This document shows, piece by piece, positions 5,727-24,962 of a stretch of DNA of 34,084 nucleotides; position 1 is the first letter of the stretch; the number at the start of each line of letters is the position of its first letter. Source of the DNA: a virus; IMG/VR virus record IMGVR_UViG_3300045999_002229, positions 1 to 34,084 of that record; one strand, 5' to 3'. A program made the translations under genes and the position numbers. The notes under the pieces are model-generated. The model saw only the letters and a program-made list of their open reading frames with translations, did not search any database and had not been told where the DNA came from.

Positions 5727-7004
5727 ATGGCTAACGCTTTTTCGAAAGAAGAAATTGTTGCTTTTGAGGACATCCTCGAAGGCTTCAACGATGCTTTGAT
5801 CCTGTCAAAGAACATCAACGTATATAACACCAACGGCGTAACAATGGAACGCGCTCGTGACACCATCTGGCGTCCACAACCTTACATCGCTCAGTCATTC
5901 GACCGCGTTGTAGGCACATCGATTGCTGGCGACGTTTCGACGATGACTCAGCTTTCGGTTCCATCGACTCTCGGTTTCAACAAGTGCTCTGCTTGGCAGA
6001 TGAACGCCTTGGAACTGCGTGATGCGTTGCAAGAAGGTCGCTTGGGCGATTCCGCAAAGCAAAAGCTGGCTTCGGACATCAACCTTTCCGTTATGGATTT
6101 GGCTGCTGCTCAAGGTACGCTTGTTGTTGACGTAGCTACCGCCGCTGGCGATTATGATGACATCGCGCTTTGCGACAGCATCATGAACGAACAGGGTGTT
6201 ATGGCTGGTGATCGTTACCTCGCTTTGTCGAGCCGCGATTATAACGGCATGGCTGGCAACTTGGCAGTAGCGACTCGCTCGTTCACTGGTAACAAGTCGG
6301 CTAACGCATATGAGCGTTCGTTCGTTGGTGAAGTCGCAAGCTTCCAGACCTACAAGCTCGACTATGCTAACCGTTGCGCTGCTAACGCTGCAACTGTCAC
6401 CATCAACACAACTGGCGCTCAAGCTCAGTATGTGCCACAGGCGACAACGACCAGCACTGGCGGCATCCTGAACGTTGATAACCGTTACCAGACTGTAACT
6501 GTTTCATCGTCGGCTGGCGTTGTTGCTGGTGACGCGTTCACCATCGACGGCATCGAAGCAGTCCACCACATCACGAAGCGTTCGACTGGCGAACTGAAGA
6601 CCTTCCGCGTAATTGACGTCCCTGCTGGCGGCACTACGTTGGTAATCAGCCCTCCAATCATCGCAGCAACTGCTCCAGCAACTGATGCTGAATTGCAGTA
6701 CAAGAACGTTGAATTGGTTGCAGCCGCTTCGTCTGCTCCACTGAACTTCTTGAACGTTGCTGCTTCGAACATCAACCCATTCTGGCGCAAGGATTCGATT
6801 GAACTCCTCCCAGGTCGCTATGCTGTTCCAGATGGCGCAGGCGTTGACGTTCTTCGTGCATCGACGGATCAGGGTATCGAATTGGTCATGACCAAGAAGT
6901 TCGACCCACTGACCTTCCAGACGCTTTACACGCTGGACACACTGTATGGTGTGGTCATGACGAATCCGGAAATGGCTGGGATTTTGTTGTTCAATCAAAC
7001 TTAA
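5727..7004 (+). CDS. Major coat protein, P22 gp5-like
   Basis: At 425 aa it nearly matches P22 coat (430 aa). The N-terminus, with EEIVAFEDILEGFNDALILS and then MERARDTIWRPQPYI, is typical of the P22 coat family (HK97-type fold). A GGAG ribosome site lies 8 bases before ATG 5727, stronger than for most neighbours, as expected for the most abundant virion protein. A hairpin terminator follows the stop. An inserted beta domain is plausible in the middle third (about 210-310), where Thr, Val and Gly are frequent, as in the P22 I-domain; this is inference. Confidence 0.93.
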   Translation: MANAFSKEEIVAFEDILEGFNDALILSKNINVYNTNGVTMERARDTIWRPQPYIAQSFDRVVGTSIAGDVSTMTQLSVPSTLGFNKCSAWQMNALELRDALQEGRLGDSAKQKLASDINLSVMDLAAAQGTLVVDVATAAGDYDDIALCDSIMNEQGVMAGDRYLALSSRDYNGMAGNLAVATRSFTGNKSANAYERSFVGEVASFQTYKLDYANRCAANAATVTINTTGAQAQYVPQATTTSTGGILNVDNRYQTVTVSSSAGVVAGDAFTIDGIEAVHHITKRSTGELKTFRVIDVPAGGTTLVISPPIIAATAPATDAELQYKNVELVAAASSAPLNFLNVAASNINPFWRKDSIELLPGRYAVPDGAGVDVLRASTDQGIELVMTKKFDPLTFQTLYTLDTLYGVVMTNPEMAGILLFNQT

Positions 7005-7011
7005 TAGGGAT

Positions 7012-7040
7012 GGGGGGAGCTTCGGCTTCCCCCTCTTTCT
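7012..7040 (+). terminator. Hairpin terminator after the coat gene
   Basis: A nine-pair GC-rich stem (7012-7020 with 7025-7033, one G-U pair) is closed by a UUCG tetraloop and followed by a pyrimidine-rich tail (TCTTTCTTCT). It lies 7 bases after the coat stop codon. It is probably a partial terminator or an mRNA stabiliser that sets coat expression above that of downstream genes. Confidence 0.8.
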
Positions 7041-7055
7041 TCTAGGAGTGAGCCA

Positions 7056-7229
7056 ATGCCATTGAAAAAAGGTTACAGCCGGTCAAGCATCGGTAAGAAT
7101 ATCAAGATGGAAGAAAAGTCTGGTCGCCCTAAGAAGCAGGCCATCGCTATTGCGCTTAATGTCGCACGCGATGCAGCAATGAAAGCTGGCAAGCCATCCA
7201 AAGCTCCAAAGCGGAAAGCAAAGAAATGA
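7056..7229 (+). CDS. Small basic phage protein (57 aa)
   Basis: The ORF runs from ATG 7056, preceded by an AGGAG site at 7043-7047, to TGA 7229. The protein starts MPLKKGYSRSSIGKNIK and contains KKQAIAIALNVARDA, a pattern seen in many small phage proteins of unknown function. It ends in a Lys/Arg-rich tail. Net charge is strongly positive, so nucleic-acid or capsid-interior contact is plausible, but no function is established. It overlaps the next gene by 4 bases (ATGA), and translation is probably coupled. Confidence 0.75.
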   Translation: MPLKKGYSRSSIGKNIKMEEKSGRPKKQAIAIALNVARDAAMKAGKPSKAPKRKAKK

Positions 7230-7558
7230 CAGACTTCCCAACCATAGTTTATCGCACACCTGGCCCACACAAGAAGCCTCGTGGCAAGACCTATGCCTAC
7301 CGGAGTGCTGCGGATCAGGAAGCATTTGACGCATTGATCGCTAAAGGATGGTCTGCGTCTTATGAAGAAGCCGTAGCTGAAAAGCGTGCGGATGCAATCA
7401 TCGCAAAGGCTGAAGCATTCGAAGATGCTATTGATGACGTATCCGAACCAACCCGCGATGAACTAGAGGCGAAGGCAAAAGAACTAAATGTCTCGTTTAA
7501 TGCTCGCACTTCTGATAAGAAGCTTGCTGAGCGCATTGCGGAAAAACTGGAGGATTGA
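7226..7558 (+). CDS. Protein with C-terminal HeH/SAP-like helical domain
   Basis: A 110-aa protein. The N-terminal half (PTIVYRTPGPHKKPRGKTYAY, then DQEAFDALIAKGW) resembles small head-associated proteins in which a residue string describes a short beta motif plus a helix. The C-terminal segment from about residue 75 (TRDELEAKAKELNVSF, then TSDKKLAERIAEKL) looks like the HeH/LEM or SAP-like helix-extended-loop-helix domain found in several phage head and DNA-packaging proteins. Location between coat and gp4-like genes fits a head-completion accessory. The exact role is unknown. Confidence 0.7.
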   Translation: MTDFPTIVYRTPGPHKKPRGKTYAYRSAADQEAFDALIAKGWSASYEEAVAEKRADAIIAKAEAFEDAIDDVSEPTRDELEAKAKELNVSFNARTSDKKLAERIAEKLED

Positions 7559-7560
7559 TC

Positions 7561-8040
7561 GTGGGATATACCAAGAGACAATTCGTAACGTCAGCCTTTG
7601 AAGAAATAGGCTTGGCAGATTACGTGTTCGACCTTCAGCCAGAACAGCTTGAAGGCGCTCTACGTCGCTTGGATGCCATGATGATGGAATGGAACGCGCA
7701 GGGCATTCGCCTTGGTTATCCAATCTCCAACAGCCCACAGCAAGCCGATCTGGACACAGATACCAACACGCCTGACAGCGCATGGGAAGCGGTTATAACT
7801 AACCTCGCTGTTCGCATTGCGCCTGGATATGGTAAGGCTGTATCTCCTGAGACCAAGGTCACAGCAAAGAACGCTTATAACGTGCTAATGCAGCGTGCAG
7901 CGTTCCCGCTCGAAAAACAACTTCCAGAAACAATGCCTATTGGTCAGGGCAACAAGCCTTGGCGCTGGGATAATCCTTACGTCTATCCGCCTATCGACCC
8001 TGTTGACGCTGGGCCGGATGGCCCCATTGAGTGGAGTTAA
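7561..8040 (+). CDS. Head-completion / tail accessory factor, P22 gp4-like
   Basis: The protein is 159 aa from GTG 7561; P22 gp4 has 166 aa. A GGAGG site at 7549-7553 with a 7-base gap favours GTG 7561 over TTG 7555. The N-terminus (YTKRQFVTSAFEEIGLADY, then ALRRLDAMMMEWNAQGIRLGY) is characteristic of the gp4 family, whose members plug the portal and form the adaptor to the tail hub. P22 gp4 also has a reported peptidoglycan-hydrolase activity; nothing here tests that. The family call is good from sequence pattern, size and synteny. Confidence 0.87.
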   Translation: MGYTKRQFVTSAFEEIGLADYVFDLQPEQLEGALRRLDAMMMEWNAQGIRLGYPISNSPQQADLDTDTNTPDSAWEAVITNLAVRIAPGYGKAVSPETKVTAKNAYNVLMQRAAFPLEKQLPETMPIGQGNKPWRWDNPYVYPPIDPVDAGPDGPIEWS

Positions 8041-8043
8041 TCA

Positions 8044-8370
8044 ATGCCTACTATCAATTTCCTTCCGCTGATTACGCAAATATCAGGCGGTGACAATGTT
8101 GTTTTATGGGTTCCCAATCAAGGGGACAGCCGTCGTGCATCCGTTACAACGCTTATCGACTACATTCAGGTAAACTTTGGCGCTGTTACCTGTTCGTCAG
8201 TTCAGACAACGCCTGTTCGCTTTGACCAGTTGCCTAACGCTGTTGGCAATGCTGGTGCGCGTGCATTCATCACTAACTGCAACACGACAACGTTTAACGC
8301 TGCCGCTGCTGGTGGTGGTTCAAACCAAGTCCCAGTGTTCAGCGACGGCATTATCTGGCGCGTTGGATAA
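8044..8370 (+). CDS. Small putative virion protein (108 aa)
   Basis: The ORF starts at ATG 8044, 9 bases after a GGAG site. The first 45 residues (NFLPLITQISGGDNVVLWVPNQ, then a segment ending TLIDYIQ) resemble the short leader found at the start of several phage tail or decoration proteins. The rest is rich in Thr, Asn, Ala and Gly and ends SDGIIWRVG, typical of small all-beta virion proteins. It is placed between the gp4-like and gp10-like genes, where P22 has none. Function is not recognised; decoration or fibre attachment is possible. Confidence 0.7.
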   Translation: MPTINFLPLITQISGGDNVVLWVPNQGDSRRASVTTLIDYIQVNFGAVTCSSVQTTPVRFDQLPNAVGNAGARAFITNCNTTTFNAAAAGGGSNQVPVFSDGIIWRVG

Positions 8371-8398
8371 AGTTAAACCTAGTTAATGGAGAATTGAT

Positions 8399-8518
8399 AT
8401 GAAAATGGGTGGCGGAAAAATGAGCTACGGTTCAAAAGGTATGGCGATGGCAAAGAAGGCCGCTGGTAAAGCTGCCAAGCCAATGATGATGACCAAAGCC
8501 AAGAAGAAAAAGAAGTAA
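8399..8518 (+). CDS. Lys/Met-rich micro-protein (39 aa)
   Basis: A GGAG site precedes ATG 8399, and the 39-residue product holds 13 Lys and 8 Met with almost no acidic or large hydrophobic residues. It ends in five consecutive Lys. Such tiny basic proteins could neutralise packaged DNA or line the capsid interior, as protamine-like peptides do in other viruses, but this is inference from composition only. Its good ribosome site and tight packing between structural genes argue that it is translated. Confidence 0.6.
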   Translation: MKMGGGKMSYGSKGMAMAKKAAGKAAKPMMMTKAKKKKK

Positions 8519-8526
8519 GCTTTCGG

Positions 8527-8808
8527 ATGAAAAAGGATTCGCGCCTTACTCGTGCTGGTGTCGCTGGTTATAACAAACCCAAGCGCACACCATCGCATCC
8601 GAAGAAGTCGCACGTTGTTGTCGCCAAAGAAGGTGATAAGATCAAGACGATCCGCTTCGGACAGCAGGGCGTAATGGGTTCACCCGCCACTAAAGGTGAA
8701 AGCGAATCCAACAAGAAGCGCCGCGCATCGTTCAAGGCTAGGCATTCAAAGAATATAGCTAAGGGTAAAATGAGCGCGGCGTTTTGGGCCGACAAGGTTA
8801 AGTGGTAA
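8527..8808 (+). CDS. Small basic conserved-type protein (93 aa)
   Basis: The ORF begins at ATG 8527, 8 bases after the preceding stop. The product is strongly basic. A central segment (KIKTIRFGQQGVMGSP) is followed by RRASFKARHSKNIAKGKMSAAFWADKVKW. Phage and virus proteins ending in a similar SFxARH...SAxYW...KW pattern are common, but their function has not been settled as far as I know. A nucleic-acid-binding or capsid-interior role is plausible. No metal-binding Cys cluster remains in this version of the motif. Confidence 0.7.
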   Translation: MKKDSRLTRAGVAGYNKPKRTPSHPKKSHVVVAKEGDKIKTIRFGQQGVMGSPATKGESESNKKRRASFKARHSKNIAKGKMSAAFWADKVKW

Positions 8809-8820
8809 AGGAATTGAGCT

Positions 8821-9123
8821 ATGAATAATATCGAAACATTTGCGCCAGCTTACGGACAAGCTATTGTCGTAACCCCTGGCAACACAAGTGCTAACTCCGT
8901 TCTGGGTAAGAACGTGACATCGCTGTGCATCACCAGCCGCAATTCGGTTGAGTGCTTTGTGCGCGTTGGCACGGGCGCTGGCCTTGCTGCAACGACTGCT
9001 GACTATCTGGTTCCGCCAAACGGTCAGGTAAGCATCAGCAAGTTCTTGGATTATGACCGGATTGCATACATCGCTCCTGCTGGCGGTGGTTCGCTCCACA
9101 TCATGCCAGGTGAAGGCTTCTAA
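8821..9123 (+). CDS. Small putative virion protein (100 aa)
   Basis: The ORF starts at ATG 8821 after a GGAATTGAG ribosome-site-like stretch. The protein has no Lys-rich part and reads as a compact beta sandwich: alternating Val, Ile, Thr and Gly, with segments such as QAIVVTPGNTSAN and SLCITSRNSVECFVRVGTG, ending in SLHIMPGEGF. This resembles small decoration or tail-attached proteins. Its stop overlaps the next ATG by one base (TAATG). No family name can be assigned from the sequence alone. Confidence 0.65.
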   Translation: MNNIETFAPAYGQAIVVTPGNTSANSVLGKNVTSLCITSRNSVECFVRVGTGAGLAATTADYLVPPNGQVSISKFLDYDRIAYIAPAGGGSLHIMPGEGF

Positions 9124-9257
9124 TGTTTCTGCTAACGCGCCTTCGGAATCGCTTGCGTTATTACAACGCAGACGGTGGCCCCGTTCTTGGTGCGCTTCTT
9201 CTAGAGAATGGTGATTTCCTGACTCTTGAAGATGGCGGATTCATCTTACTGGAATAA
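9123..9257 (+). CDS. Micro-protein with repeated LLLENGD-like units (44 aa)
   Basis: The ATG overlaps the previous stop by one base. The product opens with a short basic segment (RLRNRLRYY). It ends with three imperfect repeats of a Leu-Glu-Asp-Gly unit (LLENGDF, TLEDGGF, ILLE), which could form a small beta-roll. Tight coupling to both neighbours supports translation. Function unknown. Confidence 0.55.
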   Translation: MFLLTRLRNRLRYYNADGGPVLGALLLENGDFLTLEDGGFILLE

Positions 9258-9265
9258 ACATATCC

Positions 9266-10678
9266 ATGACACAGATTCCAATCCTGAGCGGCATATACAC
9301 AGACAACGGGCCGGACTTTAGAACGTCCTATCCCGTAAACTTTGTGCCTGTGCCAAAGGCGAACGGAATCAGCAATGGATATTTGCGACCCGCTGAAGGC
9401 ATTGTCGGCAACGGCACTGGCCCTGGCATTGATCGCGGTGGCATAAACTACAACGGCGTTTGCTACCGCGTCATGGGTTCTAAGTTCGTATCAGTTGCCA
9501 GCAACGGCGCTGTGACAATCTTGGGCGATGTCGGCAATGATGGCGATTACGTTACGCTAGACTACAGCTTTGAATATATCGGCATTGCGTCGAACAACAA
9601 TCTATTCCTATGGGATATAAACACGCAAGTGCTGGCTCAGAACACCGACCCTGATCTTGGCGTGGTTCTAGATACAGTGTGGGTTGATGGCTACTGGATG
9701 ACCACTGATGGCGAGTTCCTTGTTGTCACAGACCTAAGCAATCCGTTCGCAGTGAACCCTCTGAAATATGGTTCGTCAGAAGTTGACCCCGACCCAGTGG
9801 TTGCCCTGCTAAAGCTACGCAATGAAGTCTATGCGCTCAACCGTCACACCATCGAAGTGTTCGACAACAGAGGCGGAGACCTATTCCCGTTCGAGCGCAT
9901 CGAAGGCGCACAGATTGAAAAGGGCGTTGTCGGAACGCACGCTTGCTGCGTATTCCTTGAGAACATCGCATTCCTTGGCAGCGGATTTAATGAAGCCCCA
10001 GGGATATATCTTGGCGCGAACGCAACTGCCAACAAGGTCAGCACGCAAGAGATTGACGAACTGCTGGCCACATTCACTGAAGCGCAGTTGGCTGGGGTAA
10101 AGCTAGAGGCACGGAACGATAGAGCGCATCAGCATCTATATATCCACCTTCCCGATCGCACGGTTGTTTTCGACGCAGCGGCAACGCAAGAACTTGGTCA
10201 GCCTGTATGGTTCACATTGACGAGCAGCCTTGTGGACTTTGCTCCATATCGCGCTCAGAACTTCGTGTGGTGCTATGACAAGTGGTTGCTAGGCGACCCT
10301 ACCAGCAATGCCATTGGGTATCTGGTAAAGGATATATCGACGCACTGGGGGCAGAAGGTACGCTGGGAGTTTGGCACAACCATTCTGTACAACGAAGGTC
10401 GAGGTGCGATATTGCAGAACCTTGAGCTTGTTGGGCTTACAGGCTCAGTTGTGTTTGGCTTAGACCCAACGATTAACACCAGCTATTCGATTGACGGGCA
10501 GACATGGAGCCAGCAGAAGTTCATCAAGGCTGGTAAGACCGGACAGCGTGCAAAGCGTCTTGTATGGTTCCACCAAGGCTGGATGCGTAACTGGCGCGTT
10601 CAACGCTTCCAAGGCACATCAGATGCCCATATGTCGTTTGCTCGGCTGGAAGCAGCCATAGAGCCATTGGCCTACTGA
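9266..10678 (+). CDS. Packaged-DNA stabilisation protein, P22 gp10-like
   Basis: At 470 aa it matches P22 gp10 (472 aa) in length. The N-terminus (PILSGIYTDNGPDFRTSYPVNF) and the later segments ALNRHTIEVFDNRGG and EKGVVGTHACCVFLENIAFLG are typical of the Phage_stabilise family. In P22 this protein forms the tail hub below gp4 and prevents leakage of packaged DNA. The predicted fold is mostly beta, consistent with the propeller-like gp10 hub. It overlaps the next gene by one base (TGATG). The ribosome site before ATG 9266 is weak. Confidence 0.9.
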   Translation: MTQIPILSGIYTDNGPDFRTSYPVNFVPVPKANGISNGYLRPAEGIVGNGTGPGIDRGGINYNGVCYRVMGSKFVSVASNGAVTILGDVGNDGDYVTLDYSFEYIGIASNNNLFLWDINTQVLAQNTDPDLGVVLDTVWVDGYWMTTDGEFLVVTDLSNPFAVNPLKYGSSEVDPDPVVALLKLRNEVYALNRHTIEVFDNRGGDLFPFERIEGAQIEKGVVGTHACCVFLENIAFLGSGFNEAPGIYLGANATANKVSTQEIDELLATFTEAQLAGVKLEARNDRAHQHLYIHLPDRTVVFDAAATQELGQPVWFTLTSSLVDFAPYRAQNFVWCYDKWLLGDPTSNAIGYLVKDISTHWGQKVRWEFGTTILYNEGRGAILQNLELVGLTGSVVFGLDPTINTSYSIDGQTWSQQKFIKAGKTGQRAKRLVWFHQGWMRNWRVQRFQGTSDAHMSFARLEAAIEPLAY

Positions 10679-11946
10679 TGGCTGTAGCTCCAAGAAAGCT
10701 CGGTCTGACACGAGATCAGTTTGCCTCGTTCCTTCAGGATTTCGAGCAGATTAAGCAATTCGAAAATCTATTTGCTGCTGTTGATACCATTGCCAACGTC
10801 GAGCTTAACGATATTAACATTGCTGCTGGCAACGCTAACGCTGCTGCCAATGAAGCAAATGACGGCATTCAAAGGCTTCTGGATGCGCTAGACCGACAGC
10901 CAAGCGACCAATCATCTGAGCTTCTGGCAGCAATCAATCAACTGCGCCAAGAGCTTGAAACGATTCCAAGGAATGAACTTGGAACGATGGCGGCACTTCA
11001 GCAAGCGAACGTCCCTTGGTTTACGTTCAACACTGCTCCAACGCCAACACCTACCGACATAGGAAGCCTCTACTGGAATGGCGGCACAACCCTAAATATG
11101 CAGATGACGGCTAACGTCGTTCAACGAATAGGCGAGAACCTTTACTATTACATCAAGGCTTCGGCGGCTATCACCAAAGGCCAAGTCATTATGTTTGATG
11201 GCGCTGTCGGTGCGTCTGGCGTACTCAAAGGCAAGCCAGCTACTGGCGTGACCAACGGCGCATTTATTATGGGCATAGCGGCGGAAACCATAGCCAATAA
11301 CGGCTTTGGCCTTGTGCAGATCAACGGCCCATTGCAAGGCATCAACACCTCAACATTCCTAGATGGCGATGTGCTTTGGTACGACACGGCTGTAACTGGT
11401 GGGCTAACCAAAACAGAACCGCTTGCGCCAAACGTAAAGGTTCAAGTCGCAGCGGTAGCAAGGGCGGCTAACAACGGAACTATAGTCGTTCGCATTACCG
11501 CTGGCTCTATCCTTGGCGGAACAGATAGCAACGTGCAGTTTGGCACGCTATCGAATGGTGACCTGATTCAATACGACGGCACTCTACAGTATTGGAAGAA
11601 CGTCAGCGCAGCATCCGTGATTGCTGGCACTGCTAGTACGCCAGTTACCAAGACTGCAAACTTTACAGTCGGTATTGGCGAAACATGGATTATCAACAAC
11701 AAGTCAGGATCGACTTGCACTGTTACACTACCATCCGCTGCGACCAATAGTGGGCGCGTCATTACGTTCCAGAACAACCAAGACCAGAGCCTTATTTCCG
11801 CGTCGAGCAACGTCGTACCGCAGGGCGGAGGCAGCGCAGGAACTGCAATCCTAGAGAATGTTTCTGGTAATTGGGCTACCCTAGTGTCAAACGGCACAAA
11901 TTGGGTTATTATGCAAGCAGCTTCGTTTAATAACTTACTATTCTAA
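10678..11946 (+). CDS. Tail needle or fibre-like protein at the gp26 position
   Basis: This 422-aa protein follows gp10 directly, where P22 encodes the gp26 needle. Residues about 15-105 are helical and coiled-coil-like, with repeated Leu/Ile spacing in FLQDFEQIKQFENLF and SSELLAAINQLRQELETI. A Thr/Pro-rich hinge follows (TAPTPTPTDIG). The remaining 300 residues are all-beta with tail-fibre-like texture (GSLYWNGG, YYYIKASAAITKGQVIMFDG, TNGTNWVIM type). P22 gp26 is shorter (233 aa) and mostly coiled coil. A trimeric needle or fibre with a distal beta domain is the best reading; homology to gp26 itself is not shown. Confidence 0.7.
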   Translation: MAVAPRKLGLTRDQFASFLQDFEQIKQFENLFAAVDTIANVELNDINIAAGNANAAANEANDGIQRLLDALDRQPSDQSSELLAAINQLRQELETIPRNELGTMAALQQANVPWFTFNTAPTPTPTDIGSLYWNGGTTLNMQMTANVVQRIGENLYYYIKASAAITKGQVIMFDGAVGASGVLKGKPATGVTNGAFIMGIAAETIANNGFGLVQINGPLQGINTSTFLDGDVLWYDTAVTGGLTKTEPLAPNVKVQVAAVARAANNGTIVVRITAGSILGGTDSNVQFGTLSNGDLIQYDGTLQYWKNVSAASVIAGTASTPVTKTANFTVGIGETWIINNKSGSTCTVTLPSAATNSGRVITFQNNQDQSLISASSNVVPQGGGSAGTAILENVSGNWATLVSNGTNWVIMQAASFNNLLF

Positions 11947-11956
11947 GGGACGAATT

Positions 11957-12295
11957 ATGGCCGTAACAATCAGTAATATCATCCCCGCTAAGACGGCGGA
12001 AAACACGCAGACAACGCAATATACGTCTACGAATGTGCAGACTATCATAGATAAGTTCACTGCAACGAACTATAGCGCATCCGCTGCAACGATTAGCGTG
12101 AACCTTGTCGCAACAAGTGGATCGGCTGGCAATGACAACCTGATCGTCAAGACTAAGGCTCTACAGCCAGCGGAAACATATACGTTCCCTGAATTGGTTG
12201 GTCAGGTATTGCCTAATGGATCGTTTATCAGCACAATCGCTGGTACTGCATCAGCAATCAACATCCGCGCTTCAGGGAGGCTCGTAACACAATGA
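11957..12295 (+). CDS. Small beta-rich putative virion protein (112 aa)
   Basis: The protein begins MAVTISNIIPAKTAENTQTT and has alternating hydrophobic residues throughout (AATISVNLVATSG, TYTFPELVGQVLPNGSFIST), suggesting a beta sandwich. The family is not recognised, but similar small proteins lie beside fibre genes in many podophages. It starts 10 bases after the fibre-like gene and overlaps the following gene by 4 bases. A structural role in the tail is inferred from this position. Confidence 0.65.
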   Translation: MAVTISNIIPAKTAENTQTTQYTSTNVQTIIDKFTATNYSASAATISVNLVATSGSAGNDNLIVKTKALQPAETYTFPELVGQVLPNGSFISTIAGTASAINIRASGRLVTQ

Positions 12296-12693
12296 AAAAG
12301 CCAATGATGATTATTGAAGGCTTTGCTGGTCTGCGTGAAAGCGAGCCATTCATCACAGCCGCTGAGAACAAGAAGAACACCAAAATCGTAATCGACGATT
12401 GGATGCTTGGCCCTGAAAACCCAAGCAATGAGCGTGGCGCTAATCCTGAATACTGGATTGCTCTTGGCAAGGCGATGCAAGTCGATGAAGCAGAAGCCCG
12501 TCGCCGCCGCTGTTCACTGTGCGAGTACTACGACAATAGCACTATGACGCAAGCCAAGATGGATAAAATCCCTTGGAACTCATGGGACGTTGACGCTGGA
12601 TTCCGTGGCTATTGCACGAAATTCGACTTCATCTGTCATGATTTGCGCTCTTGTCAAGCGTTTGAAGAACGAGAGTTTGAATTTGAAGATTGA
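12292..12693 (+). CDS. Cysteine-cluster protein (133 aa), putative metal-binding
   Basis: The C-terminal half carries C74-x2-C77, then C108, C115, H116 and C121, preceded by four consecutive Arg. This spacing suggests a small zinc- or iron-binding domain. The N-terminal part (IIEGFAGLRESEPFI, NPEYWIALGKAMQVDEAEARRRR) is of a type I associate with podophage proteins placed between tail and ejection genes; function is not known. It overlaps the preceding gene by 4 bases (ATGA). In P22 this interval holds gp14, an assembly factor for ejection proteins. An equivalent chaperone role is possible but unproven. Confidence 0.72.
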   Translation: MKKPMMIIEGFAGLRESEPFITAAENKKNTKIVIDDWMLGPENPSNERGANPEYWIALGKAMQVDEAEARRRRCSLCEYYDNSTMTQAKMDKIPWNSWDVDAGFRGYCTKFDFICHDLRSCQAFEEREFEFED

Positions 12694-12758
12694 TTGTGAT
12701 AAGGCTGATACACCGAGCGTTTACGAGCAGCCGGTGGCTCAGTAGCAGAAAGCCTACT

Positions 12759-13220
12759 ATGCTTAAAAGCGGAACGCCTGAATACTGGTTGCGTCGGAAC
12801 TTTGTGGAAGTCTTGGACTTGCCCGAAGACGCTGTGGAATGGCTTATTGCTTTATGGCAAGTTGTCCAGCTTTTCGATGACATTGTTGATGGCGACAAAA
12901 TAGATCGTGACGAAGCTGACATGGCAATCTGGAACGCATTGGTCGGCTTGCCAGCTAATACGTTCTATCAAACGCACATGGTTGTATTACTTCCGCTTGT
13001 TAGCACTGCGATTCTAAAGTGGAAGGCATCTGATACGGCTGAACTGGCTGGCGATGCTTGCGCTACTAGCTTTGTCTGGCGTGCTGGATATTATGATATT
13101 GTTCTGGCAACTGTGCAACTTGTTCACGGCACGCAGGCTGCTATGGAAATAGGTCATGTTGTGTTAAAGCTTTATGGCGAAAGCCTTGATGAGTATATGA
13201 AGGAAATGTCTAATGCCTGA
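12759..13220 (+). CDS. Helical phage protein with DDIVDGD motif (153 aa)
   Basis: The frame is open from 12690 (TTG), but ATG 12759 gives the start MLKSGTPEYWLRRNF, which reads as a natural N-terminus. The upstream 23 codons are Arg/Ser-rich and unlike the rest. The ribosome site before ATG 12759 is weak, so this start is provisional. The protein is mainly helical. The segment LWQVVQLFDDIVDGD contains a DDxxD pattern seen in class I isoprenoid synthases, but no second metal motif is clear. It precedes the gp7-like gene with an 8-base overlap. Function unknown. Confidence 0.72.
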   Translation: MLKSGTPEYWLRRNFVEVLDLPEDAVEWLIALWQVVQLFDDIVDGDKIDRDEADMAIWNALVGLPANTFYQTHMVVLLPLVSTAILKWKASDTAELAGDACATSFVWRAGYYDIVLATVQLVHGTQAAMEIGHVVLKLYGESLDEYMKEMSNA

Positions 13221-13824
13221 TCCAGTAACTGGTATTGCTGCTGCTACCAGCATCGGCGGCTCGCTAATAAAGGGAAGCGCGGCTAAGAAAGCCTCTAACA
13301 TTGAGGCTGCATCGCTCCAAGCTGGCGTTGATGAGACCCGTGCTGCACGCGAAGAACTGCGGACATTGCTGCAACCATACACTGAAGCTGGTGGCCCCGC
13401 CTTACAAGCGCAGATGGCCGCCCTAGGGCTTTATGGCCCACAGATGCAGCAAGAATATTTTACTGAGCAAGAGAAAAGCCCAATCTTTCAAGGGTTAGCA
13501 CAACAGGGTGAAGAAGCTATATTACAGCAAGCATCTGCAACTGGTGGGCTTCGCGGCGGCAACGTTCAAGGCGCATTGGCGCAGTTCCGTCCCCAGTTGT
13601 TGAATCAGTTCCTTGAGCAGCAGTATGGTCGCTTGGGTGGCATGACACAGCTTGGTCAACGATCTGCGGCTGGCGTTGGTGCTGCTGGAATGGATGCGGC
13701 TGGTAGCATTGCAGAGCTTCTTGGCAAGCGTGGCGAAGCGCAGGCTGGTGGAGCTTTGGCGCGTGGAAAGATGTTCAGCGACATACTTGGTGAAGTTGGC
13801 GGCATAGGCAAGGGATTATTTTAA
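13213..13824 (+). CDS. Ejection (internal virion) protein, P22 gp7-like
   Basis: At 203 aa it is close to P22 gp7 (229 aa). The N-terminus contains a glycine-rich hydrophobic stretch (TGIAAATSIGGSLIKG). A long Ala/Gln/Glu-rich helix follows (LQAGVDETRAAREELRTLL), then Gly- and Ala-rich repeats (ATGGLRGGNVQGALAQFRP, LEQQYGRLGGMTQLGQ). This composition is typical of proteins carried in the capsid and injected with DNA to form a channel across the envelope. Gene order (before two further ejection-type proteins) matches P22 7-20-16. Confidence 0.8.
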   Translation: MPDPVTGIAAATSIGGSLIKGSAAKKASNIEAASLQAGVDETRAAREELRTLLQPYTEAGGPALQAQMAALGLYGPQMQQEYFTEQEKSPIFQGLAQQGEEAILQQASATGGLRGGNVQGALAQFRPQLLNQFLEQQYGRLGGMTQLGQRSAAGVGAAGMDAAGSIAELLGKRGEAQAGGALARGKMFSDILGEVGGIGKGLF

Positions 13825-14663
13825 TGGCTAGAGATTACTCTATTGCCTCCGATCCAAGGCAGATGTTCTTGCAGTCTGTTGCCTTGCAGCGTGCCGAGCA
13901 AGATCGTCGTGTAAAGCTTGAGAGACAGAAAAGCCTTCAAACGGATTTGGCTGCGCTTATGGAAAAGCCAGACACGCAATCTTTTGCGAACTTCTATCTG
14001 AAGTATCCAGAGGCGAAAGAGCAAGTCGAAGGCTATCGCAAGACAATGGGCGAAGGTGACCAGAAAGCGATTCTTGAAGCTTCGCAGACCGCCTTTATTC
14101 TCAACAGAGAGAACCGTCCAGAAGATGTAAATAAGCTGTTTGATGAGCGCATTGAGGCGCTCAAGAACTCTAATCGCTCAGGCTTAGCGCAGACATTCGA
14201 GCGAGCCAAATCCACTTATAATACGACCACAGACCCTAAAGCGCGGGAAGCTGTGCTATCGACCATCATCTACAATTATGGTGGCGGTGAAGCGCATGAG
14301 AAGATTTTTGGTTCCAATGTTCAAATGGATACTCCATTCATTAAGGAACTATATGCGGAGGGCAAAAGGCCTGGAACCCAAGAATGGGAAGATGCACTAC
14401 GCGCAAAGCGTGAAGGTGATCCGTGGGTAGCAGTTCCTAACGTTGGTCTATTCCTGAAAAGGGATTTGCAGGCAGCTATCAATAATGGTCAACAAGCGGT
14501 TACTCCACAAATACCACAAAACGCAGTTAATTTGCTGAGACAGAATCCTTCTTTAGCGGCAGACTTTGACAAAAAATATGGAACGCCAAGCAATCCAAAT
14601 CCTTCAACTCGTATTATAGGAGGTCAGACGGGCGCACCGTCTGGTAACTTTCGCAAACGGTAA
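13824..14663 (+). CDS. Internal virion protein, P22 gp20-position
   Basis: A 279-aa protein starting at ATG 13824, which overlaps the previous stop by one base. It is largely helical and charged (LQRAEQDRRVKLERQKSLQT near residues 20-40) with no membrane segment. The last 30 residues become Asn/Pro/Gly-rich (NPNPSTRIIGGQTGAPSG), like a linker. The next ORF, an M15-type peptidase, begins 4 bases downstream in the +1 frame. The two may therefore form one functional unit or derive from a split gene. Role in DNA ejection is inferred from position. Confidence 0.78.
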   Translation: MARDYSIASDPRQMFLQSVALQRAEQDRRVKLERQKSLQTDLAALMEKPDTQSFANFYLKYPEAKEQVEGYRKTMGEGDQKAILEASQTAFILNRENRPEDVNKLFDERIEALKNSNRSGLAQTFERAKSTYNTTTDPKAREAVLSTIIYNYGGGEAHEKIFGSNVQMDTPFIKELYAEGKRPGTQEWEDALRAKREGDPWVAVPNVGLFLKRDLQAAINNGQQAVTPQIPQNAVNLLRQNPSLAADFDKKYGTPSNPNPSTRIIGGQTGAPSGNFRKR

Positions 14664-14667
14664 AAAG

Positions 14668-14931
14668 GTGATAAGTGAGCTATTCCCACAAGCTAACATT
14701 ACCTCTGGGTATCGTGGGCCTAGTCATCCGTTATCAAAGAAGAATCCTAAGTCGTTTCATGCAAGTTCTATTGGCGCAGTTGATGTTGCCCCGATTCCTG
14801 GCATTACGTTTGAGCAGTATGTTAATCAGATTCGAAATGCTGGATACCGCATTATTGAATCGCGTGACGAAGTAAAAAATCCATCTAAGAACGCTACTGG
14901 CCCACATTGGCACGTAGTGATTGGGAAATAA
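14668..14931 (+). CDS. M15-type peptidoglycan peptidase domain (87 aa)
   Basis: Almost the whole protein is one domain: TSGYRGPSHPLS, then SFHASSIGAVDVAP and finally GPHWHVVIG. This matches the SxH...D...HxH zinc pattern of M15/D-Ala-D-Ala carboxypeptidase-like enzymes. Such a domain in an ejection cassette usually cuts peptidoglycan cross-links during DNA entry. The start used is GTG 14668, 4 bases after the previous stop, with almost no separate ribosome site. Translation would need reinitiation or a +1 frameshift from the preceding gene. The stop lies 4 bases before the next ATG. The catalytic residues look complete; the mode of translation is uncertain. Confidence 0.8.
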   Translation: MISELFPQANITSGYRGPSHPLSKKNPKSFHASSIGAVDVAPIPGITFEQYVNQIRNAGYRIIESRDEVKNPSKNATGPHWHVVIGK

Positions 14932-14935
14932 AGCA

Positions 14936-17764
14936 ATGGCAAAAAATCCTTTTGATCAGTTTGATAAAGAAGATGTGGCTTCTGTTCCTATTTCGTCAAT
15001 CCAGCCAATTGTTGCTGCTCCCAAAGAAGCTGAAAAGCCTGAAAAGCCTACGGAAACATTTTCCATAGCCACACCAGAGCAAAAGGCTGCTGCTGGCCTT
15101 GATCCTAATCGCGTTTATCAAGTTAGCTCAGTAACCGGAGAGTTTAAGGATGTTGGTGGACAGCCAACCGCCAAAGCTGTTGCAGAAAAAGATACCAATC
15201 GTCTTCCACAGCTTTATACTGGCATTTCTGCTGTTAGGGATTTGCGGAAGCTTTCCGATAAATTTCTGTCACTAGGAAAGCAGGCTGGTGGCATTAGCGA
15301 AACGCCTGTTCTTGGTTCTCTACTTGGACAGAATCGTGCTGACCTTGAGGGATCAATTGAAATCCTTAAAGGTATTATTATTCAGGATCAGCTTGCGCGA
15401 CTAGCGAAGATTAACCCTGCTGGTGTAGCTAGTCTTGCAAATACTCCAGGTGAGCAGGAACGATTTGTTTCCTCTATTGCAAACCTGAATCCTAATCAAA
15501 GCCCAGAGCAATTTGCAATAGGATTAAAACGCGCTGAAGATTATCTCAACCGACAATTAAAAGAATCTGGAGGAGAGCCTGTTGGTGAAAGAGGAGCTCC
15601 TGTAGCTGGTTTGACTGCGGCACTTCCTGGCGATCGTGTTGTTGCGGAAATTGACCTTAAAAATGCAAGGGATTTGCAGGCTGCGTGGCAAAGCGGTAAA
15701 TCTATTGAGGAACTAAGTGCCATTTCCATAGCGAATGTCGGCTCACCATTAACGCCTGAATCTATCGCCGCACTTACCGCAGACACTAATCGTCAATTAC
15801 AGTTCCAGCCATACCTTGCCCCAATGGAAGATGTCACTGAAGACATGGGCATCGTTGAAGGCGCGATTGAGACTGTAACTGGTTCGGAGCGCAGTACGCC
15901 TGAAATCGAGGCTACTGCTGACTGGACAACCATGCCTGAGCTTAACGAACTGTCCATTGCTGGTGCGCGTACAGGTATTGGTACAATGTTCACAAGCCCA
16001 GAAGAATCCGTCCAAATCATTCAAGCCAACTATCCTGGCGTTCAAGTGCGGCAGGACGAAAAGGGCAATTACATTCTTCGGTCGCAAGATGGCAAGGATT
16101 ATGGAATCAAACCTGGCTTCCGTTGGAGCGATGTTCCTCGTGCCGTTGGTGGTATATTGGCGTTTACTCCTGCTGGACGAGCAGCAACATTTACTGGTGC
16201 GGCGCTTAAATCTGGAGCAACGCAAGCTGCCATTGAAGGCACTGAGTTTGCGGCTGGTGGAGAGTTCAACGCACAGCCTATCCTTATGGCTACAGCGGCT
16301 GGCCCTGCCGAGAAAATTATTGGAGATGTTCTGTCTACGGCACTTCCAGCAGTAACTTCGAAAATTAAGCAATTAACTGGACGCCCTGAAGTTCCATTAG
16401 GAGGCGCTCCTGAAGCTCCTGCTGGAATGGCGATGCCGCCTGCGGCAACGATGGCTCCTGAAGCACCAATACCAGGCGCTGTAGTCTCGCCTGCGCCAAC
16501 AGTTAGCGCCCCTGCATCAAGGCCAGCAGGCGGGGCTATGTCCACCAGCGAAGAAGCTATACGGGTTCAACGTGCGGCTGAGCTTCCAGTGCCTATTGAA
16601 CTTGCACGATTCCAACGGACGCGTGACTTTACAGAGCAACAACGCGCACGCGAACTTGCCAAAGACAATGAAGTTGGTGGCCCTATTCGTGATCGAATGG
16701 CACGCCAGCAGGACGAACTACGTCAGAACTTTGAGCGGTTTATTGAAGGCACTGGTTCTGAAGTATGGAACAATCCATATGAGCAGGGCGGTGTTATTGC
16801 TGATGCGCTTTCAACCCTTGCAAGGCGTGAGCGTACACGCACCAGTGCGCTTTATAAACGTGCCGAAAAAGCTGGTGAGATGCGCGAACCTGTTAGCTAT
16901 CAGGAATTAAGCGACTTCATTGCACAGCAAACGCCAACCACCCGCGAAAAATTAGCTCCAGTTCTAAAGACTGTTGAGGAGCAGATATTAGCTAACGATC
17001 CAAATAAAACAGGGATGATGGCCCTGAATCAAATGGAAGATATTCGTAAGCTTATCAACAAGGTTGCAAGCCCAGGTACTGCGGACGCTACCTTTGGCCG
17101 TGATATGCGTATTATCATTGACAACGCAACCAAGGACGCTGGCGGCGATGTATATAAGCAGGCGCGTGCATCTCGCACCAAGTATGCCAGAGATTTTGAA
17201 GACATCGATCTTGTTGAGAAAGTCTTTGCCAATAAGCCTGGAAGCACCGATCGCTTTGTTGCTCTTGAGAAGGTAACAGATAAGATCACTGGAGATAACA
17301 CACCGCTTGATAGCGTAAAGCATCTTCTTGGCTTATTAGATCGTGCTGGCCCTCGCGGTGTTCGTGCAAAGCGCGAATTGCAAGGCTCTGTTATGGAGAA
17401 GATTAGGGATCAAGCATATCGCGGAATCACATCAGATGAATCTGGACAAACGGTTATTCAGCCTGCTGCGCTGAACAAAATCATTACAAGCCTAGAGAAG
17501 AACGGCAAACTTGATGTGATTTTTGATAAGAAAACGGCAGAGCTTTTAAGCACAATTAACGATGTGACCAAAGACATCATTACATCGCCACCAGGCAGCA
17601 TTAATGCCTCTGGAACATCAAGCGCAATTATGAACGCAGTTGATACTCTTGGCACTTTTGGCATAACAGGATTGCCTGTTCCGGCAGCGAAACTTCTTAA
17701 TGATTTCCGCAAAGCTATGGCCGCACGGGGAATGCGTAAAGAAGTGAAAAGGCTTCTCGATTAA
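14936..17764 (+). CDS. Large ejection protein (942 aa), P22 gp16-position
   Basis: ATG 14936 gives MAKNPFDQFDKED; a TTG five codons earlier is also possible. The protein has an N-terminal helical region, a central hydrophobic Gly/Ala stretch (about 400-440: VGGILAFTPAGRAATFTG) that may enter a membrane, and a Pro/Ala-rich linker (about 485-540). A long helical C-terminal half follows, with Arg/Glu repeats (RARELAKDNEVGGPIRDRMA). P22 gp16 is 609 aa, so this one is much larger, in the range of other podophage internal proteins. Position after gp7- and gp20-like genes supports a role in the trans-envelope channel. No enzymatic motif was recognised in it. Confidence 0.8.
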   Translation: MAKNPFDQFDKEDVASVPISSIQPIVAAPKEAEKPEKPTETFSIATPEQKAAAGLDPNRVYQVSSVTGEFKDVGGQPTAKAVAEKDTNRLPQLYTGISAVRDLRKLSDKFLSLGKQAGGISETPVLGSLLGQNRADLEGSIEILKGIIIQDQLARLAKINPAGVASLANTPGEQERFVSSIANLNPNQSPEQFAIGLKRAEDYLNRQLKESGGEPVGERGAPVAGLTAALPGDRVVAEIDLKNARDLQAAWQSGKSIEELSAISIANVGSPLTPESIAALTADTNRQLQFQPYLAPMEDVTEDMGIVEGAIETVTGSERSTPEIEATADWTTMPELNELSIAGARTGIGTMFTSPEESVQIIQANYPGVQVRQDEKGNYILRSQDGKDYGIKPGFRWSDVPRAVGGILAFTPAGRAATFTGAALKSGATQAAIEGTEFAAGGEFNAQPILMATAAGPAEKIIGDVLSTALPAVTSKIKQLTGRPEVPLGGAPEAPAGMAMPPAATMAPEAPIPGAVVSPAPTVSAPASRPAGGAMSTSEEAIRVQRAAELPVPIELARFQRTRDFTEQQRARELAKDNEVGGPIRDRMARQQDELRQNFERFIEGTGSEVWNNPYEQGGVIADALSTLARRERTRTSALYKRAEKAGEMREPVSYQELSDFIAQQTPTTREKLAPVLKTVEEQILANDPNKTGMMALNQMEDIRKLINKVASPGTADATFGRDMRIIIDNATKDAGGDVYKQARASRTKYARDFEDIDLVEKVFANKPGSTDRFVALEKVTDKITGDNTPLDSVKHLLGLLDRAGPRGVRAKRELQGSVMEKIRDQAYRGITSDESGQTVIQPAALNKIITSLEKNGKLDVIFDKKTAELLSTINDVTKDIITSPPGSINASGTSSAIMNAVDTLGTFGITGLPVPAAKLLNDFRKAMAARGMRKEVKRLLD

Positions 17765-17825
17765 TGACCTTTCGCAGTAACATAATTTCGGCTATAAGCC
17801 CAAAGACGCAAGGGATTAAGTTCTA

Positions 17826-20087
17826 ATGGCACTTACTCAGGTTACAGGCCCTTACCCAATATTTACCGATCTAGACGGCACGCCTCTGGATGATGGATAC
17901 CTGTATATAGGTGCTATCAACCAAGACCCTGAACAGAATCCGATTCAGGTCTATTGGGACGCCAACCTTACAATCCAAGCCACTCAGCCAATCCGCACAA
18001 GCAATGGCTACGCTTATCGTAACGGCACGCCAGCCTTGCTTTACACTGCTGGCGAGTTCTCGATCACAATCCGCAACAAGCGCGAGGAGTTCGTTCTCTA
18101 CAGTCCTGTAGGCTATGGCTTCGATCCTGCCGCTGTATCTGCTTCTGTTGTCAAGAACGACTTTACGGGTAACGGCGTTCAAGTGGCCTTCGTGCTGTCA
18201 GCATCTCCATCCACAAAGCTTGCCACGAACGTATTCATTAATGGCGTCTATCAGGAAAAAGACAGCTATAGCATTTCCGGCAACACGCTGACGTTTACAG
18301 TTGCTCCGCCGTTGAGTTCCAGCATTGAGGTAATGACGAACGAAACGGGCATTATTAACTCCGGCAACGCAACTGCTATTTCGTACACTGCTGGCTTCCC
18401 TGGAGCAACACTGCAAACCGTTCAAACCAAGTTAGAGCAATATGTTTCGGTCAAAGACTTTGGTGCTGTTGGCGATGGCGTGACTGATGACACGGCTGCT
18501 ATAGAAGCCGCTTTAGGTTTAGGTGGCCATGTAACATTCCCCGTGGGGACATACAAAGTTTCCACTGTGCTGATTGAGAACGTGAATAACCTGACCGTCG
18601 ATGCGCGGTCGGCTACGTTTACAAGCCAGTATGGTAACGTATTGGTCTTTAAACAGTGCGACAATTTTTCTTGGGAAGGCGGCGTAATTAACGCAGGTAC
18701 AGGGGCTAACCCTGCATACCCTTCAGGCGCCGAGTCCATACCGCAAAACTTTTTGCTCTATAACGCTAACGTAGCATCTGTTAGCGGCCTGACCGTCAAC
18801 AACAATATTGCTAACGTGGCTGCTTGCATAACCGCATGGAACATGGGCCAAGTCCAGATTAACAACAACCAAGTTTATTATGGCGGCGACAACTCCATTT
18901 GGTGCTTTGGATGCTTTGATGTGACCGCTGCAAACAACATTGTGTCGGCACAAGAGCGTGGGCGTGGTATTTGTTTCCAGCAAGTCAATCAAGGCGCAAT
19001 GGTTGGTAACGTAGTAAAAGACGGTAAAGGCGATGCGCTAAACGTGCATGGTTCAGCCAACGTAGCTATTACCGGAAACAGCGTCTATAATATGCTAGTG
19101 GACGCCGTGATCCTTGGGCTATCGTCTGGCGTAAGTATCGAATGGGACGAAAATGCAACTGCGCCACAAATTGCCGCCGCTGTAGCTAACACACAACTAT
19201 ATAACGGCGTATTTTGCCGCAACATTACGGTATCAGGAAATACGCTTGTTAAAGCTGAATACGGTGTTCGTATCGGTAACAACCAAGGCATCAGCGGCGA
19301 CAACTACGGCAACCAAGGCCAAGTTATCGTTACGGGCAACAATATTTTTAGCGCGTCTACTGGGATTGACGTCGGCACTTCCCGTCAAATCCGTATTTCA
19401 GGCAACATGATAAGCACCTGCAATCAGGCTTGTATTGAGTTTGATATGGGTACAGATACAGGTGGGTATTCACCTGAAAACATCCATGTTTCTGACAATC
19501 GGTTTACGGTGTTTAACCTGACAAACCTTAGCTATAACGCTGTTCAGTTTCAAGGTGGAAGCCCTGTTGCCGCTGATCTGATTACGCTAACCAATAACGA
19601 GTGGGATAGCGGACAGAACTCCGCTGGGTTTTCTAACGTGTCTGGTTCGACTTTGGCGGTTATCGAAACCGGAACAGCTAACGCCAATGGATTAGCTATC
19701 TCATCCACTAAAGCGGCGCTTACTATTCAAAAGCAATTTTCCGACCAGACCGGATCGTCATTGCTTTCGCCAGTAGTTGTAAACAAGGCATCTAACGAAT
19801 TTACGCAATCAGGTGCGGTTGGCGACTCGTTTACAACTGTTCTGGCAATCCCTTCCAATGCATCTATTGCGGCTCAAATTCAGATTGGCATTAACGACCG
19901 CGTATCGTGTTTTGGGACGATCTACGCGCACAACGGAACAACGCCTGCTCTGACCTTTACTGGCACTGGCGGGACTTTTGTTCAGCTATCGGGCAGCAAT
20001 TTGCAGATTAGGGGCAACACAACTGGCGGTACAGTATCTTATGGCGGCATTTACTCCATAAAATACACTCTGCTGAATCCAACGTAA
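17826..20087 (+). CDS. Tailspike with P22-type head-binding domain and beta-helix
   Basis: The 753-aa protein has three parts. Residues 1-108 match the P22 tailspike head-binding domain (PYPIFTDLDGTPLDDGYLYIG, then GEFSITIRNKREEFVLYSPV). Residues about 110-178 form a fibre-type beta module (DFTGNGVQVAFVLS, VFINGVYQEKDSYSISG). From about 207, VSVKDFGAVGDGVTDDTAAI opens a pectate-lyase-like right-handed beta-helix, followed by many Asn/Val/Gly repeat turns. Such spikes bind and usually cut host surface polysaccharide. The substrate and active-site carboxylates cannot be fixed by eye. A 61-base gap without strong signals separates it from the ejection genes. Confidence 0.9.
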   Translation: MALTQVTGPYPIFTDLDGTPLDDGYLYIGAINQDPEQNPIQVYWDANLTIQATQPIRTSNGYAYRNGTPALLYTAGEFSITIRNKREEFVLYSPVGYGFDPAAVSASVVKNDFTGNGVQVAFVLSASPSTKLATNVFINGVYQEKDSYSISGNTLTFTVAPPLSSSIEVMTNETGIINSGNATAISYTAGFPGATLQTVQTKLEQYVSVKDFGAVGDGVTDDTAAIEAALGLGGHVTFPVGTYKVSTVLIENVNNLTVDARSATFTSQYGNVLVFKQCDNFSWEGGVINAGTGANPAYPSGAESIPQNFLLYNANVASVSGLTVNNNIANVAACITAWNMGQVQINNNQVYYGGDNSIWCFGCFDVTAANNIVSAQERGRGICFQQVNQGAMVGNVVKDGKGDALNVHGSANVAITGNSVYNMLVDAVILGLSSGVSIEWDENATAPQIAAAVANTQLYNGVFCRNITVSGNTLVKAEYGVRIGNNQGISGDNYGNQGQVIVTGNNIFSASTGIDVGTSRQIRISGNMISTCNQACIEFDMGTDTGGYSPENIHVSDNRFTVFNLTNLSYNAVQFQGGSPVAADLITLTNNEWDSGQNSAGFSNVSGSTLAVIETGTANANGLAISSTKAALTIQKQFSDQTGSSLLSPVVVNKASNEFTQSGAVGDSFTTVLAIPSNASIAAQIQIGINDRVSCFGTIYAHNGTTPALTFTGTGGTFVQLSGSNLQIRGNTTGGTVSYGGIYSIKYTLLNPT

Positions 20088-20099
20088 GGAACTAGGGCG

Positions 20100-20963
20100 A
20101 TGGCCGATAAGAAAATTTCTGCTTTAACTGGCGCTACCACACCGCTTGCCGGAACCGAAGTACTGCCTATTGTTCAGGGTGGCAGCACAGTAAAAGTTAG
20201 CGTAGCCGATCTGACGGCTGGCCGTACTGTTACAGTCTCTGCGCTAGGTGTCGGAACTGCGTCGCCGCTTACTACGTTTAACGTAGAGGGCGGAACTTTT
20301 CTTCTTCGCGGCGGCCCTATGGATATTGGTCCGACCTCCGGCGCAACCGGCGCGGCTCGTATTTCGTCTAGTCTGACAAATGGGGTTGAGGGAAAGCTGA
20401 TTTTCAGCACATCAAACTCATCTGCTGCGATTACGGAAGCCATGAATATCGACAAAGACGGCAACGTCACTAATACCATTGGCAACGTCGTAATCGGCAC
20501 TGCTGGCAAAGGCATCGACTTCAGCGCGAACACGCACGCGGCAGGCATGACCAGCGAATTGCTGAATGACTATGAGGAAGGCACTTGGACGCCCGTTGTG
20601 CGCGGGTCTGGCGCTGCCGGTACTTACGAATTAGCATCTTCAGCAGCTTATTATACCGCAATCGGGCGTCTAGTGACTTTGCATATGACACTAACCACCG
20701 CAGGATCGGTTACAGGCGGCGGTACTGGTTACCTACAAATTACTGGCGTTCCGTTTGCCAACGCTGCTTTTGCAACCGGCACTGTATATCTACAAGGTGT
20801 AGATTTTACTGCCGATTATGTTGTGTGCAACTTTACTTCAGCCTCCGGCAGTTCAATTTTATATTTTGAGGAGGTGAGGGACGCCGCATCTTCTGGCGAT
20901 TTACCTGTTTCCGCTATCGCAACTAACGATACTATTCGTTTAACGATCCAGTACATTCGTTGA
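20100..20963 (+). CDS. Putative tail fibre protein (287 aa)
   Basis: The N-terminus (MADKKISALTGATTPLAGTE, then VLPIVQGGSTVKVSVADLTAG) is a widespread phage leader that probably attaches a fibre to the tail. Residues about 125-150 (MNIDKDGNVTNTIGNVVIG) resemble fibre shaft segments. From LLNDYEEGTWTPVVRG onward (about 158) the C-terminal part resembles a receptor-binding or chaperone-like fibre tip. ATG 20100 follows an AGGG site. Placed between two beta-helix proteins, it belongs to the host-recognition cluster. Exact receptor unknown. Confidence 0.8.
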   Translation: MADKKISALTGATTPLAGTEVLPIVQGGSTVKVSVADLTAGRTVTVSALGVGTASPLTTFNVEGGTFLLRGGPMDIGPTSGATGAARISSSLTNGVEGKLIFSTSNSSAAITEAMNIDKDGNVTNTIGNVVIGTAGKGIDFSANTHAAGMTSELLNDYEEGTWTPVVRGSGAAGTYELASSAAYYTAIGRLVTLHMTLTTAGSVTGGGTGYLQITGVPFANAAFATGTVYLQGVDFTADYVVCNFTSASGSSILYFEEVRDAASSGDLPVSAIATNDTIRLTIQYIR

Positions 20964-20973
20964 TTAGGAAATT

Positions 20974-24959: not shown

Positions 24960-24962
24960 TCC

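Follow-up and report, generated by a model that had tools for sequence, protein, structure and literature searches.

Split ejection-protein gene of a P22-like podovirus very probably expressed by programmed +1 frameshifting with an internal Shine-Dalgarno sequence and an upstream hairpin

The DNA analysed here is the IMG/VR virus record IMGVR_UViG_3300045999_002229; its whole length of 34,084 bases is referred to as the window. It harbours a DNA ejection protein gene that is split between two reading frames: a frame-0 open reading frame (ORF) is followed by a cell-wall hydrolase-like domain in the +1 frame. The original prediction had described a 279-amino acid (aa) ORF at 13824-14663 and, 4 bases past its TAA and in the +1 frame, an 87-aa ORF with a GTG start at 14668-14931, and these coordinates were all confirmed. 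The +1 frame is open from position 14620 on, after a TAG at 14617-14619, i.e. from well 5' of the GTG. Close to the end of the frame-0 ORF lies an element composed of an AGGAGG sequence, a hairpin, a short linker and the slip site UUU_C (Table 1). The hairpin between AGGAGG and UUU_C had been missed in the original prediction. It is separated from AGGAGG by one base, comprises 7 bp (8 bp when the closing U-G pair is counted) and has a predicted folding energy of -12.9 kcal/mol. No match to the element was found in Rfam, and a DNA search of phage and plasmid collections with the 37-nt element yielded nothing relevant.

Table 1 Features of the window and of the split gene
Feature	Position	Strand	Remarks
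Window, IMG/VR virus record	1..34,084		34,084 bases
P22 gp7-like DNA ejection protein gene	13213..13824	+	PF25688 4.1e-06; phrog_598 2.2e-31
Frame-0 ORF at P22 gp20 position	13824..14663	+	279 aa, 31.4 kDa; preceded by gp7-like gene
AGGAGG, internal Shine-Dalgarno-like sequence	14618..14623	+	nearly all relatives have GGAGG at a constant distance, two a weaker variant
Upstream hairpin CAGACGG-GCGCA-CCGTCTG	14625..14643 (arms 14625-14631/14637-14643)	+	predicted fold, covariation
Linker GTAAC, hairpin to slip codon	14644..14648	+	4-5 nt in nearly all relatives
Slip site UUU_C	14649..14652	+	frame-0 UUU 14649-14651; putative +1 re-pairing on UUC 14650-14652
Frame-0 stop TAA	14661..14663	+
+1-frame extension with M15-like cell-wall hydrolase domain	14650..14931	+	would be reached by shift
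GTG, start in original prediction	14668..14670	+	here internal valine codon; no ribosome-binding site, start not conserved
Next ejection-operon gene, P22 gp16 position	14936..17764	+	partial match to transglycosylase family, phrog_29864 1.2e-12, residues 303-456

Programmed +1 frameshifting, stimulated by the internal Shine-Dalgarno sequence together with the upstream hairpin, very probably explains the split gene. It had been one of three options raised for the locus, next to reinitiation at the GTG and an assembly indel, and comparison with relatives favours it over the other two. A shift at 14649-14652 would yield a 368-aa fusion of 40.9 kDa, in line with the joined product of about 41 kDa anticipated beforehand, while the unshifted product has 279 aa and 31.4 kDa. 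Sequence comparison of the loci described below shows how the two frames relate as well as the presence, structure and conservation of the element.

Viral contigs were scanned with a pattern that constrained neither the base after UUU nor a triplet spacing between GGAGG and UUU. The strict element was present in 81 stretches, and leaving the slip site nearly free raised the number to at least 119; three false matches (L140, L141, L151) were dropped because of their reading frame or misfit to the layout. The distance from GGAGG to UUU was a multiple of three in all 63 distinct elements of this first set. Independently of the element, searches with hydrolase-domain proteins only (alignments A1 and A2) retrieved 140 viral loci, for which exceptions to the automatic frame classes were checked by eye; L269 and L296 were found to be +1 splits. 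In 132 of the 140 loci, a long ORF and the same layout precede the domain, which is in the +1 frame relative to that ORF; in three loci it is in the -1 frame and in five in frame. Two of the +1 loci carry weaker Shine-Dalgarno variants, namely L232 (GGGGGT) and L310 (GAGGT). The suspicion cast earlier on the AGGAGG at 14618-14623 was right. Conservation extends beyond close strains (more than 130 loci), with the domain of Pseudanabaena phage Pam1 being 45% identical, and the same split is found in the isolate genome of this phage in addition to more than 100 independent contigs. In the Pam1 record (ON014753, 10411-11515), the region is annotated as a 'translocase' coding sequence and a short 'hypothetical protein' coding sequence starting inside the hydrolase domain; by our analysis, the two would constitute one frameshifted gene. 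The names of five further loci (L270, L271, L272, L276, L298) resemble isolate-genome prophages (IMG numbers). The gene is present in all five; L271 has a -1 heptamer, and the other four have the +1 element.

All 126 distinct elements were found to fold into a hairpin. The distance from GGAGG to the hairpin is 0-1 nt in 124 of them and that from the hairpin to UUU 4-5 nt in 120, with three of the outliers resulting from the script choosing a second TTT. Length variation is confined to the interior of the hairpin, and the hairpin lengths preserve frame 0. In the main stem class, represented by 76 distinct 25-nt regions, any one of the seven stem pairs is formed in 70-76 of the regions. Most of the pairs are changed on both sides (C-G/G-C, A-U/C-G, A-U/G-C) and one is invariant. 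Stems unlike the main class occur in L251, L257, L268, L280 and L014/L015 (the last two retrieved via the ejection protein), several of them with GNRA-like tetraloop caps. The whole stem can be replaced with the layout unchanged, e.g. by ACCAGCG/CGCTGGT in L251 and GGTGGCA/TGCCACC in L014. This pattern of variation suggests that the fold of the hairpin and its spacing probably matter and that the sequence of its stem does not. The base following UUU is C in 118 elements, U in eight and never A or G, although a pyrimidine at this position was a selection requirement for part of this set (not in the first scan). Cognate re-pairing in the peptidyl (P) site would hence be possible in the +1 frame in 126 of 126 elements.

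A stem-agnostic descriptor, namely GGAGG followed by a hairpin with 6 or more bp, 3-6 nt and TTTY, was run on both strands of 4.7 Mb of fetched loci. It gave 157 distinct matches, a number far in excess of chance when compared to 14 in total in shuffled sequence, and 139 of the 157 coincide precisely with a 0/+1 ORF junction of the same kind; since presence of this gene was the reason for retrieving the loci, the count describes specificity within these phages and not a rate across phages.

The position of the frame change can be deduced from the distribution of substitutions. Of the differences 5' of the element, 397 of 605 in the group of the window fall on third positions of frame 0, and of those 3' of it, 10,044 of 15,497 fall on third positions of the +1 frame; these tallies are pairwise counts of events that are not independent. 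Two codons ahead of UUU, GGN predominates; all four bases occur at its third place, a variation that is synonymous in frame 0 but not in the +1 frame. Taken together, these patterns place the frame switch at UUU_Y. The codons between hairpin and UUU vary like frame-0 codons, and the +1 frame shows protein-level conservation 5' of the GTG, up to the shift site.

Relatives with other arrangements provide natural controls. Among the five in-frame loci of the 140, L264, L273, L281 and L305 retain the element and L300 is one base shorter. Six in-frame loci that keep the element (L048, L101, L281, L305, L148, L159) all have a +1-frame stop within five codons, compared to a background of 14.5% of comparable UUU_Y codons. 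L148 and L159 are closely related, which leaves five independent cases and a chance of about 6e-5. Such an early stop in six of six loci looks as if a short and a long protein were both required; on the simplest reading, the phage needs the two forms, and the one that is not made in frame 0 arises by the shift. In L271, L274 and L294, the domain is in the -1 frame with a canonical heptamer, C_CCU_UUC, in place of the +1 element. The direction of the shift is exchangeable in this gene. In these loci the heptamer is found some 60-100 bases ahead of position 2501 and is preceded by GGAGG at a distance of 21 nt; the same hydrolase is reached. Relatives of the ejection protein that lack the hydrolase (L019, L020, Pan3, MW202496, MW202701) also lack the element. 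Sphingopyxis phage VSN-002 has the same two parts in a single ORF and no element.

Several kinds of domain are found in the +1 frame, i.e. two M15-like groups, Peptidase_M15_3 and SLT transglycosylases, of which M15_3 and SLT were confirmed by Pfam. The proteins upstream of the element form seven single-linkage clusters at E 1e-4. Given this variety on both sides, the element behaves as a portable joint. We consider it likely that it represents a natural class of +1 signals, in which a hairpin that immediately follows an internal Shine-Dalgarno sequence and is separated from UUU_Y by 4-5 nt drives forward slippage by its fold and spacing only. It would serve as a portable cassette that joins interchangeable hydrolases to ejection proteins at a fixed ratio and that can be inverted so that the shift yields the short form. 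An extra segment, GNIDLHxRPIVxNxDGSISTVRSMSFGTDQGEVLVPTVS..., recurs near the hydrolase domain, after the element, in L101, L154, L269 and L281.

That ribosomes actually shift here, how frequently they do so and which mechanical role each part plays, we infer from the arrangement of the element and from systems studied by others. The majority of ribosomes would translate 13824-14663 into the 279-aa ejection protein. In a fraction of the ribosomes holding UUU 14649-14651 in the P site, the phenylalanine tRNA would re-pair one base further on, at UUC, and reading in the +1 frame up to 14931 would then produce the 368-aa protein with its C-terminal peptidoglycan-hydrolase-like domain. The two upstream signals would act jointly, GGAGG by pairing with the anti-Shine-Dalgarno sequence of the 16S rRNA and the hairpin by re-forming 4-5 nt behind the P-site codon, near the exit (E) site. 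The folded hairpin would take out 19-25 nt, leaving about 6 nt between GGAGG and UUU. Most likely, a duplex adjoining the E site puts the pairing in the P site under strain and promotes the forward slip, similar to the internal Shine-Dalgarno sequence of prfB; GGAGG may either still be paired with rRNA at the slip or act as an earlier pause signal. Published work is consistent with such a course. In prfB, +1 shifting is promoted by an internal Shine-Dalgarno sequence that pairs 3 nt ahead of the shift codon (PMC5009743), a hairpin upstream of a +1 site stimulates shifting in yeast (PMC3639245), and in synthetic constructs with reconstituted 70S ribosomes a hairpin near the E site mimics the Shine-Dalgarno duplex with about 60% of its effect (PMC6321510). 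Three points weigh against frameshifting by this route. In prfB, 3 nt separate the Shine-Dalgarno sequence from the shift site; in the window, GGAGG and UUU are 25 nt apart in the linear sequence, and folding of the hairpin would still leave 6 nt between them. The codons in the aminoacyl (A) site (CGC, CAA, CCC and others) are mostly sense codons with no obvious slow codon, and a stop is present in only six of 126 elements. Hairpin-stimulated +1 shifting on 70S ribosomes required the absence of RF2 at a stop codon (PMC6321510), a pause that the element mostly lacks.

Among the other explanations, translational coupling, in which ribosomes stop at the TAA 14661-14663 and restart at GTG 14668 aided by AGGAGG to give two separate proteins, draws on the position of the GTG 4 bases past the stop, on the AGGAGG upstream and on the presence of the GTG in most of the closest group of the window. 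It is nevertheless very unlikely. As noted in the original prediction, the GTG has no ribosome site of its own, and none was found at a usable distance. Start codons are often absent from the early part of the +1 ORF: the close relative L099 has GTA where the window has GTG, and in about two thirds of the loci of the 108-aa group the first ATG, GTG or TTG occurs at least 31 codons past the slip, inside the conserved domain. The conservation of the +1 protein 5' of the GTG also speaks against reinitiation, which in addition leaves UUU_Y, the third-position pattern and a hairpin far from any start unexplained. Ribosome bypassing (hopping) over the hairpin instead of a one-base slip has a precedent in T4 gene 60, where bypassing is driven by hairpins behind the ribosome (PMC5009743). 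For the present element it is most unlikely, as the hairpin lengths keep frame 0, the codons from hairpin to UUU act as frame-0 codons, the spacing is a multiple of three and no matching codon pair leads to the +1 frame. An in-frame hop ahead of the slip may occur.

The hairpin could alternatively be a feature at the DNA level, for instance a recombination joint for swaps of hydrolase domains with no use in translation, and its occurrence in front of several different hydrolase domains and behind several unrelated upstream proteins does resemble a module boundary. Such a joint would, however, conserve sequence rather than structure and frame. The stem sequence is free, yet pairing, triplet spacing and the pyrimidine after UUU are retained, and in-frame loci retain the early +1 stop. 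As the sole explanation it is hardly credible, whereas a role as DNA joint could be an additional consequence. An indel introduced by sequencing or assembly, suggested by the origin of the window from a metagenomic contig and by the A-run near the stop, has a practically negligible chance of accounting for a split shared by Pam1 and over 100 independent contigs, with constant direction in this layout. The A-run at 14662-14666, proposed earlier as the cause, is irrelevant with the slip placed at 14649-14652; the region of the stop varies freely among relatives and the slip site is constant. Two further candidates were rejected: transcriptional slippage, since the U run is merely 3-4 bases long, and a conserved nascent peptide as main stimulus, since loci with other stems encode different peptides.

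For the extension domain, the assignment to M15 in the original prediction is tentative. H37, D45, H86 and H88 of the window domain are invariant in seven relatives, a pattern compatible with the His..Asp..His zinc ligands of M15. Profile searches with the domain of the window itself gave no Pfam match and no credible PDB match. Sister domains exceed the Pfam cut-off for Peptidase_M15_3 and SLT, and the 108-aa domain has no relatives in the phage collection. We refer to the domain of the window as M15-like on the basis of the conserved His and Asp residues, with which this label is compatible. The ejection proteins of P22 exit the capsid and form a conduit across the cell envelope. If a fraction of the ejection-protein copies carried a murein hydrolase, the cell wall would be opened as the DNA is injected, and the likely purpose of the shift is to set the ratio of plain ejection protein to the wall-cutting form during DNA injection.

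Portal and coat-protein families were matched in the window by profile search, and based on its gene content we assign the source to the P22-like podoviruses. The gene order corresponds to that of a P22-type ejection operon, with the gp7-like gene upstream and a gene at the gp16 position downstream. As the gp7-like gene lies just upstream, the split gene sits at the gp20 position; a match to phrog_598 is likewise found upstream in L131. For the frame-0 protein, no relatives were found in the phage collection. A peptide, NPxLAxxFDxKYGxGA, is conserved just 5' of the element, near residues 238-255 of the product of 13824-14663, and is shared with Pam1_14, L019, L020, MW202496 and MW202701. It is also kept in relatives without element and hydrolase; in these, only a short stretch separates the peptide from the end of the gene. 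Two ORFs at the ends of the window, 171-437 (-) and 33751-34008 (-), have the peptide HPAFRASWLSAITRARCCDLLR in common, indicating similar sequence at the two ends of the record; an exact terminal repeat was not found there.

Neither a natural +1 element with an upstream hairpin nor a report on this gene was found in the literature searched, to which subscription papers and preprints did not belong, so that priority is not proven; the Pam1 genome paper does not mention frameshifting. The element offers more than 100 natural variants of one design together with built-in controls (in-frame, -1 and domain-less relatives), which makes it directly testable how the reading frame is altered by a duplex located behind the ribosome. 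For annotation, it means that gene callers split or miss a virion hydrolase across a whole phage group, as in the Pam1 record.

Several known systems share features with the element. Like prfB, it would shift to +1 by P-site re-pairing (CUU to UUU in prfB, UUU to UUC or UUU here) with an internal Shine-Dalgarno stimulus (PMC5009743). However, prfB has no hairpin, its Shine-Dalgarno sequence is 3 nt from the shift codon, UGA occupies the A site and the shift is autoregulatory, whereas in the phage element a hairpin lies in between, the A-site codon is usually sense and the purpose looks like domain addition. Synthetic refolding hairpins on 70S and 80S ribosomes (Cho 2013, PMC3639245; Huang 2018, PMC6321510) stimulate +1 shifting from next to the E site and mimic a Shine-Dalgarno duplex; these are engineered, while the phage element is natural, widespread and covarying and combines hairpin with Shine-Dalgarno sequence. 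In influenza A PA-X (PMC3498833), UUU slips to UUC while a CGN codon occupies the A site, an arrangement matched by UUU_CGC of the window, and +1 shifting at UUU_CGN has been proposed for Zygosaccharomyces bailii virus Z, as cited in PMC5009743. Both involve eukaryotic ribosomes, and CGC is one of many A-site codons in the phage element; PA-X furthermore has no evident stimulatory signal and very low efficiency (PMC3498833). T4 gene 60 also has an upstream stem-loop behind the ribosome and a Shine-Dalgarno-like sequence (PMC5009743), but differs by its 50-nt coding gap and matched landing codons from what would be a single-base shift. Lambda gpG/gpGT and Listeria phage PSA provide examples of a minor, C-terminally extended virion or assembly protein with a shift direction that varies among relatives; genes and signals differ, and here a cell-wall hydrolase would be added to an ejection protein. 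The process is known and the signal architecture is new, +1 shifting with upstream hairpin and Shine-Dalgarno sequence having previously been only synthetic within the literature searched.
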